Below, in pieces: positions 9,781-12,195 of a stretch of DNA of 64,000 nucleotides (position 1 is its first letter; every line of letters starts with the position of its first letter). A program made the translations under genes and the position numbers. The DNA is from Aminobacter sp. HY435. GTDB taxonomy: Bacteria > Pseudomonadota > Alphaproteobacteria > Rhizobiales > Rhizobiaceae. Below the pieces are notes generated by a model, which was not told where the DNA came from, made no database searches, and saw nothing but the letters and a program-made list of their open reading frames with translations. The DNA lies in assembly GCF_027568395.1 (NCBI RefSeq), contig NZ_JANKZL010000004.1, positions 124,001 through 188,000 on the forward strand. Reading direction: 5' to 3'.

Positions 9781-10083
9781 TTACTGCGCGGGTGCAGCCG
9801 GTTCGACAGGCTTCGGCTGCGTCGGCGTCACATCCATGGGCTCGCTGTTCTGCATATCGCCGCCCGTGCCCGTTTCAGGCGTCGGCGTGATGCCCTGGGT
9901 CGTTGTGTTGTCGGTCGCCGGCGGTGTCGCCTCGGGCGTCGCGGGCGCCGGCGTCATCGGCGCCGGCTGTTCGGTTGCCGGCGGATTGACACTTTGGGTG
10001 GTGGTGCTGTCGGTGCTGTCGCTGCAGGCAGCAACGCCAAGCAGTGCGAGTGCCGAAACGGATGCGAGAATGAGCTTCCTCAT
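9781..10083 (-). CDS. Small Pro/Thr-rich lipoprotein, function unknown
   Basis: A 100-residue protein. The N-terminus MRKLILASVSALALLGVAAC is a lipoprotein signal peptide with the lipobox L-G-V-A-A-C, acylated at Cys20. Everything after the cysteine is low complexity, dominated by Pro, Thr, Ala, Glu and Gln, with no globular domain. It is probably a periplasmic, unstructured lipoprotein. It is divergent from btaA, and the tandem Pho half-sites lie about 110 bp from its start, so it might share phosphate control. I do not recognise a family. Confidence 0.7.
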   Translation of the reverse strand: MRKLILASVSALALLGVAACSDSTDSTTTQSVNPPATEQPAPMTPAPATPEATPPATDNTTTQGITPTPETGTGGDMQNSEPMDVTPTQPKPVEPAAPAQ

Positions 10084-10191
10084 AACAAATCTCCTTTGCG
10101 AAACGGCCCGTCCAGCGGGCGGTCGGAAACAAAATGCGCTCGCCCGGGAAGCGGTTTCGTAACGTTCGGAGTCCGAATGTCACATTCCGCC

Positions 10192-10231
10192 CTGTCGCAT
10201 CGGCGTCATGGGCGCGTCACCGCGCTGTCAC
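10192..10231 (+). promoter_or_regulatory. Tandem Pho box (four half-sites) upstream of btaA
   Basis: Four 7-bp direct repeats recur every 11 bp: CTGTCGC (10192), GCGTCAT (10203), GCGTCAC (10214) and CTGTCAC (10225). The PhoB half-site consensus is CTGTCAT followed by four bases, so this is two adjacent Pho boxes. A further TGTCAC at 10178 is out of phase. The array ends 52 bp before the btaA ATG. Confidence 0.8.
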
Positions 10232-10282
10232 GGCACTGCGCTACCCGCTTCGTCCAACAACGAAACGGGGAATCGCATTTCC

Positions 10283-11530
10283 ATGACCGATGTTTCCGGA
10301 GACCTTGTCTTTCGTCGCGGCAGGAAAGTCGGAAAAGCCGTCTGCCAGAACCCTGCCTTGTCGAAGGAAGGCCTTTCCGAGCGCCTGTTTGCATTGCTCT
10401 TCTCGGGCCTCGTCTACCCGCAGATATGGGAAGATCCCGATGTCGACATCGAGGCGATGCAGCTTGGCGAAGACCACCGCGTCGTCACCATCGCCTCCGG
10501 CGGCTGCAACATCCTCGCCTACCTCACCTGTTCTCCGGCCAGCGTCGACGCGGTCGACCTCAACGCTGCCCACATCGCTCTCAACAAGATGAAGCTTGCC
10601 GCGGTCCGTCACCTGCCATCGCAGGGTGACCTGTTCCGTTTCTTCGGGCGCGCCGACGTCGAGCACAACTCGCAGGCCTACGACCGCTTCATCGCGCCCA
10701 ACCTGGACGCTGCGAGCCGCAACTACTGGGAAAAGCGCAACTGGCGCGGCAAGCGCCGCATCGCTACCTTCGACGGCAACTTCTACAAAAGCGGCCTGCT
10801 CGGCCTGTTCATCGCCGCCGGCCACCGGGCAGCCAGATTCTACGGCGTCGACCCGGCAGGCATCATGGCCTCCGCCAGCCGCGAAGCTCAACGCCGCTTC
10901 TTCGACGAGAAGCTCGCCCCGATCTTCGAACGCCGCGCCTTGCGCTGGATCACCTCGCGCAAGTCCTCGCTCTTCGGCCTCGGCATTCCTCCAGCCCAGT
11001 ATGACTCCCTGCTCAGCTCCGGCGATGGCTCGATGGCCGGCGTGCTCAAGTCCCGCCTCGAAAAACTCGCCTGCGACTTCCCCCTCGCAAACAACTATTT
11101 TGCCTGGCAGGCCTTTGCCCGGCGCTATCCCGAGCCCGGCGAAGCCGCTTTGCCCACCTATCTCGAGCAAGCGCATTATTCGACCATCCGCGCCAATGTC
11201 GGTCGCGTGCGCGTCCACCATGCCAACTTCACCGAACTGCTCGCCGGCAAGGATGCAAATTCACTCGACCGCTACGTGCTGCTCGACGCCCAGGACTGGA
11301 TGAGCGATATCCAGCTCAACGCGCTGTGGAGCGAAATCACCCGCACCGCGGCACCCGGCGCCCGGGTCATCTTCCGCACCGCGGCAGAACCGAGCCTGCT
11401 GCCAGGTCGCCTGTCGCCGGCCCTCCTCGACCAATGGACCTATGAAGACCGGCAGTCACGCGACTTCACTGCGCGCGATCGCTCGGCGATCTATGGCGGT
11501 TTCCACCTCTACGTGAAGAAGCCGCAATGA
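10283..11530 (+). CDS. btaA: BtaA, SAM:diacylglycerol 3-amino-3-carboxypropyl transferase
   Basis: A 415-residue protein of the DUF3419 (BtaA) family. It transfers the 3-amino-3-carboxypropyl group of SAM to diacylglycerol, giving diacylglyceryl homoserine, the first step to the phosphorus-free betaine lipid DGTS. Visible family features are LVYPQIWEDPDVDIEAMQL, the SAM-binding TIASGGCNILAYL and VDAVDLNAAHIAL near the N-terminus, and VLLDAQDWMSD towards the end. The frame opens at 10208, but the ATG at 10283 follows the Pho boxes and gives the usual length. btaB overlaps the stop as ATGA. In Rhodobacter and Sinorhizobium the pathway is induced by phosphate limitation. Confidence 0.93.
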   Translation: MTDVSGDLVFRRGRKVGKAVCQNPALSKEGLSERLFALLFSGLVYPQIWEDPDVDIEAMQLGEDHRVVTIASGGCNILAYLTCSPASVDAVDLNAAHIALNKMKLAAVRHLPSQGDLFRFFGRADVEHNSQAYDRFIAPNLDAASRNYWEKRNWRGKRRIATFDGNFYKSGLLGLFIAAGHRAARFYGVDPAGIMASASREAQRRFFDEKLAPIFERRALRWITSRKSSLFGLGIPPAQYDSLLSSGDGSMAGVLKSRLEKLACDFPLANNYFAWQAFARRYPEPGEAALPTYLEQAHYSTIRANVGRVRVHHANFTELLAGKDANSLDRYVLLDAQDWMSDIQLNALWSEITRTAAPGARVIFRTAAEPSLLPGRLSPALLDQWTYEDRQSRDFTARDRSAIYGGFHLYVKKPQ

Positions 11531-12195
11531 GCGCGCCGGACCTCACTGCCGTGCATTCCGGGCTGATGGACCGGGTCTACAAGCGCCAGCGTCATGTCTA
11601 CGACCTGACGCGCAAATATTACCTGCTCGGCCGCGACCGCATGGTCTCCGAACTCGACCCGCCGGCAGGCGGTGCCGTGCTTGAACTCGGCTGCGGCACC
11701 GGACGCAACCTGATCCTTGCCGCGCGTCGCTTTCCAGACGTCCAGTTCTACGGTCTCGACATTTCCGCCGAGATGCTGGCGACAGCCAGGCAGTCGATCG
11801 CCCGGGCCGGATTGTCAGGCCGCATCACGGTCGCCCAGGCTGATGCGACGGCCTTCGACGCGCAGGCGCTGTTCGACCGCCGCCAGTTCGACCGCGTCTT
11901 CATCTCCTACGCCCTGTCGATGATCCCCGGCTGGCAGCGTTCGGTATCGGCGGCCATCGCCGCGGCCGCCGGCAGCGTCCACATCGTCGACTTTGGCCAG
12001 CAGGAACGCCTGCCCGGCTGGTTCCGCAGCCTTCTCCGTGGCTGGCTCGCCAGGTTCCACGTCTCGCCGCGCCCAGGCTTGGTCCAGGAGATACAGGCGG
12101 CAGCGGCAGCCGGCGGACGCACCGTCGACTTCGTGTCACTCTATCGCGGCTATGCCTGGCTGGTGACCGTCGCGACGCCTACTGAACGGCCCTGA
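11527..12195 (+). CDS. btaB: BtaB, diacylglyceryl homoserine N-methyltransferase
   Basis: A 222-residue class I SAM methyltransferase with motif I VLELGCGTGRNLILAARRFP, motif II YGLDISAEML and an acidic QADATAFD. BtaB adds three methyl groups to the amine made by BtaA, completing DGTS, which can replace phospholipids under phosphate starvation. The four-base ATGA overlap with btaA indicates a coupled two-gene operon. Its 3' end overlaps the convergent serine hydrolase gene by 17 bp. The assignment rests on the fold plus its strict pairing with btaA. Confidence 0.92.
   Translation: MSAPDLTAVHSGLMDRVYKRQRHVYDLTRKYYLLGRDRMVSELDPPAGGAVLELGCGTGRNLILAARRFPDVQFYGLDISAEMLATARQSIARAGLSGRITVAQADATAFDAQALFDRRQFDRVFISYALSMIPGWQRSVSAAIAAAAGSVHIVDFGQQERLPGWFRSLLRGWLARFHVSPRPGLVQEIQAAAAAGGRTVDFVSLYRGYAWLVTVATPTERP

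Follow-up and report, generated by a model that had tools for sequence, protein, structure and literature searches.

What switches on the betaine-lipid genes of Aminobacter sp. HY435, and does the short run of repeats in front of them amount to a phosphate-responsive promoter? We approached this through a 64-kb stretch of the genome (hereinafter the window), in which btaA (10283-11530, + strand) codes for a SAM:diacylglycerol 3-amino-3-carboxypropyl transferase whose DUF3419 domain (PF11899, 374 bits) spans the whole protein (residues 35-412), and is directly followed, with a 4-bp overlap, by btaB (11527-12195, + strand), which codes for a SAM-dependent N-methyltransferase (Methyltransf_25). 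An alternative start of btaA at an in-frame upstream ATG (10208), present in the list of open reading frames, was rejected, as it lies inside the repeat array and the alignment across the genus begins at 10283. The same two genes are known from Sinorhizobium meliloti, where they are reported to be induced by phosphate stress (PMC8829014) and to be under PhoB regulation (PMC3972451).

The region ahead of btaA contains four 7-bp elements on the + strand, beginning at 10192, 10203, 10214 and 10225, and direct reading bore out both these coordinates and the 11-bp phase, exact at every step, that an earlier reading made from the letters alone (the sequence-only reading) had assigned to them. PhoB is established to bind tandem 11-bp units arranged head-to-tail (PMC4415409). 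The outer pair comprises half-site 1 (10192-10198, CTGTCGC) and half-site 2 (10203-10209, GCGTCAT), each agreeing with CTGTCAT at 5 of 7 positions; the inner, promoter-proximal pair comprises half-site 3 (10214-10220, GCGTCAC, 4 of 7) and half-site 4 (10225-10231, CTGTCAC, 6 of 7), the last of which would replace a -35 hexamer. Over the whole array 20 of 28 positions match CTGTCAT repeats. It is the sole place on either strand of the window with at least 20 such matches and likewise the sole run of four in-phase GTC cores, for either of which the mean expectation is 0.025 per window (200 first-order Markov simulations of 64 kb, both strands). The description of each element as close to CTGTCAT holds insofar as each matches at 4-6 of 7 positions, but is slightly generous: a search of the window for an 18-bp two-repeat CTGTCAT pattern, allowing 3 mismatches, misses the array, so that the argument is carried by the array and its context and by no single repeat. 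What makes the case is the array as a whole, together with its conservation and the spacing between it and the -10 element.

The predicted -10 element, TACCCG (10242-10247, + strand), lies 10 bp past half-site 4, with its conserved TA 41 bp ahead of the btaA ATG; from its position, transcription would start near 10254. Apart from the TA it is a poor match, and a strict sigma-70 scan returned no promoter on either strand, as expected of an activator-dependent promoter. In E. coli, multi-box Pho promoters (that of pstS, for example) likewise have several 11-bp-phased half-sites upstream of the -10 and no -35 hexamer; they differ from the Aminobacter array in the gene served, in their AT-richer spacers and in half-sites nearer to CTGTCAT.

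An alignment of ten Aminobacter genomes showed that the four cores and the TA are kept in all of them. The invariant positions are the half-site cores (including TGTCG in half-site 1 and CGTCAT in half-site 2), the CGCG that separates repeat 3 from repeat 4 and the TACC after the 10-bp gap, whereas most remaining spacer bases vary. The layout extends to other genera. We compared 80 named btaA loci, one from Aminobacter sp. AP02 and the rest mostly from Mesorhizobium and Rhizobium/Agrobacterium, along with Chelativorans, Nitratireductor, Brucella and others, and picked the best pair in each without regard to the sequence that follows it. A TA stands exactly 10 bp past the last half-site in 77 of the 80, a count of sequences and not of independent events, many loci being close relatives and 30 being non-redundant at the promoter; among the remaining offsets from 4 to 16, a TA was found once. 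Two of the three exceptions to the rule (L123 and L129), when read by eye, proved to be cases where the script had taken one repeat too many. In a few relatives (L020, L024, L027, L030) there is no such array directly ahead of btaA, perhaps as a result of btaA not being first in its operon there.

Lineages differ in how many repeats they have. Aminobacter has four; Mesorhizobium has two, joined by an in-phase third in about 60% of cases; Rhizobium/Agrobacterium has two. Mesorhizobium promoters have the spacing of 10 bp in common with Aminobacter, and their -10 likewise reads TACCCG, but they usually have one strong pair (CTGTCAC..CTGTCAT); the Rhizobium/Agrobacterium-type promoters compared, a set that does not include the one from S. 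meliloti, have two half-sites against the four of Aminobacter. Counting back from the proximal pair, 8/8 non-redundant Aminobacter promoters have good half-sites at 11 and 22 bp and almost never at another distance. Four-repeat arrays are also present in some other genera (e.g., L012, L098, L106). From this difference by lineage, the outer pair is a lineage-specific addition, yet one kept in Aminobacter.

The sequence-only reading had proposed a PhoB weight-matrix scan of the window, and this singled out the same place: the 34-position match beginning at 10214 scores 34.6 bits against 13.9 for the runner-up, with a matrix built from 30 non-redundant btaA promoters, none from Aminobacter, that share ancestry with the site scored. 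Elsewhere in the genome this btaA matrix gives 26.9 at pst, 20.7 at phnG and 17.7 at a glycerophosphodiesterase gene. The site ahead of the pst operon (pstS, pstC, pstA, phoU, phoB) reads CTGTCAT-ctaa-CTGTAAT, then 10 bp and TA, one of its half-sites being looser. PhoB itself is encoded downstream of the pst genes and phoU (TIGR02154, 335 bits against a curated cut-off of 296.2). The pattern GTCAY-N6-GTCAY-N10-TA matches twice in the 4.6-Mb genome, ahead of btaA and between phnF and phnG towards phnG, with no match to a control pattern; a triple array of GTCAY also matches twice, once at btaA and once in the intergenic stretch that separates fabD from a sulfatase-family gene, again with none for the control. 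Both patterns have matches in every one of the ten genomes of the genus, and the controls in none. A search of the genome for TGTCAY-N5-TGTCAY gave no match, since position 2 of the half-sites is often a C in this GC-rich genome.

Several further arrays came to light in these searches. Triple arrays with one mismatch lie directly ahead of genes for a glycerophosphodiester phosphodiesterase and a phytase-like esterase in the same genome (L043:3436 and L041:3431, - strand), and these genes are likely to be further PhoB targets; two others, close to hrpB and at C23:383449, were put down to chance on account of low matrix scores and the lack of a TA at +10. A second in-phase array, of 3-4 Pho-like half-sites, sits between fabD and the divergent gene for the sulfatase-family (LtaS-like) membrane protein in nine of ten Aminobacter genomes (G000:C26:63150-63176, equivalent to L039:2151-2177; also L134-L136, L138, L140-L142, L146, L147 and L149). 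Where a TA comes after its last half-site the distance is 8 bp and not 10, so that this array may repress, or may serve the other gene of the two. In four Aminobacter genomes a half-site pair followed by 10 bp and TA stands directly ahead of a gene for an ArsR-family regulator (L157, L158, L172 and L173, near base 1500), an arrangement suggesting that phosphate starvation and the arsenic response are linked.

Taken on these computational grounds, which are strong, we hold with high confidence that 10192-10231 is a double Pho box and the predicted PhoB-activated promoter of btaAB. Support for the interpretation given in the sequence-only reading, a PhoB-type double Pho box that drives btaAB, comes from the genus-wide conservation, the half-site, 10 bp and TA layout common to other genera, the recurrence of that layout at the organism's own pst operon and phnG, a PhoB scoring above the cut-off, and the published work on Sinorhizobium (PMC8829014, PMC3972451).

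We considered whether fewer repeats, or another protein, might account for the array. The inner pair (10214-10231) might alone function as a Pho box, with repeats 1 and 2 decayed or neutral: most Rhizobium/Agrobacterium btaA promoters do with just two half-sites and those of Mesorhizobium with two or three, and the best matrix match spans the inner pair only. We regard this as unlikely, given that the cores of half-sites 1 and 2 remain unchanged across Aminobacter amid mostly variable spacer bases, and that the extra half-sites of other genera likewise fall at 11 and 22 bp. OmpR-type proteins often bind tandem 10-11-bp repeats, and many regulators of this type are encoded in the genome, one of which might read the array in place of PhoB; the same motif and layout are nevertheless found at pst and phnG, which are classic targets of PhoB, and in Sinorhizobium btaAB is reported to be PhoB-controlled (PMC3972451), leaving such a regulator a very improbable candidate.

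The divergent neighbor of btaA, a gene for a Pro/Thr-rich lipoprotein (9781-10083, - strand) with no Pfam or NCBIfam match, was said by the sequence-only reading to share the region, a hint that it may share this control. The two genes do have a gap of about 200 bp in common, and their divergent pairing is kept in 10/10 Aminobacter genomes (and seen at L011, L067 and L098), as might be expected if PhoB also activated or repressed the lipoprotein gene. Against this, the repeats and the -10 element are oriented towards btaA. Moreover, a conserved block on the lipoprotein side (10154-10186, - strand; TTTCRTAACGTTCGG..TGTCACAT) keeps its inner spacing fixed in the genus while the gap separating it from the Pho array differs by as much as 36 bp from species to species, so that there is no fixed helical phase between the two, and a separate promoter fits better than shared control. 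We accordingly consider joint control improbable and do not follow that hint: the lipoprotein gene probably has a promoter of its own and lies outside the switch. The block is tentatively that promoter, a weak assignment in view of the lack of a strict sigma-70 match. Closer to the gene, in its presumed leader, a small GC-rich inverted repeat (10100-10125, - strand; GCCCGTCCAGCGGGC and variants) was recognized by eye in most of the genus and may form a hairpin in the transcript.

Returning to the double Pho box, we infer for this organism that PhoB binds it and that btaA is induced, as well as where transcription starts and what the outer pair contributes, and envisage the following mechanism. 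The four head-to-tail 11-bp repeats would constitute two adjacent 22-bp PhoB sites, to which phosphorylated PhoB would bind when phosphate runs short. The downstream pair, ending 10 bp ahead of the -10 element, would stand in for the missing -35 hexamer, and PhoB bound there would help sigma-70 RNA polymerase to begin transcription of btaAB. The upstream pair (10192-10209) would accommodate a second PhoB dimer beside the first, probably lifting occupancy at this promoter, whose half-sites are weak when taken singly. The products of btaAB would then synthesize DGTS, a betaine lipid free of phosphorus, which would replace phospholipids.

This is a known kind of system, and a switch of the same type precedes btaAB in many related soil bacteria; what is new here is the genus, the explicit layout rule and the finding that half-site number differs by lineage. 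In Rhizobiales the rule for promoters of this type is a half-site at each 11-bp step and, after a gap of 10 bp, TA; it singles out phosphate genes in this genome without recourse to annotation. The differences between genera in half-site number offer a natural series relating the number of PhoB sites to the response threshold. It is conceivable, if doubtful, that four weaker co-operating half-sites in Aminobacter, as against one stronger pair in its relatives, make the response steeper or later than that of Mesorhizobium as phosphate declines; were this so, the replacement of phospholipids would begin only under severe starvation. The predicted promoter places the betaine-lipid synthesis of Aminobacter within its phosphate-starvation regulon.
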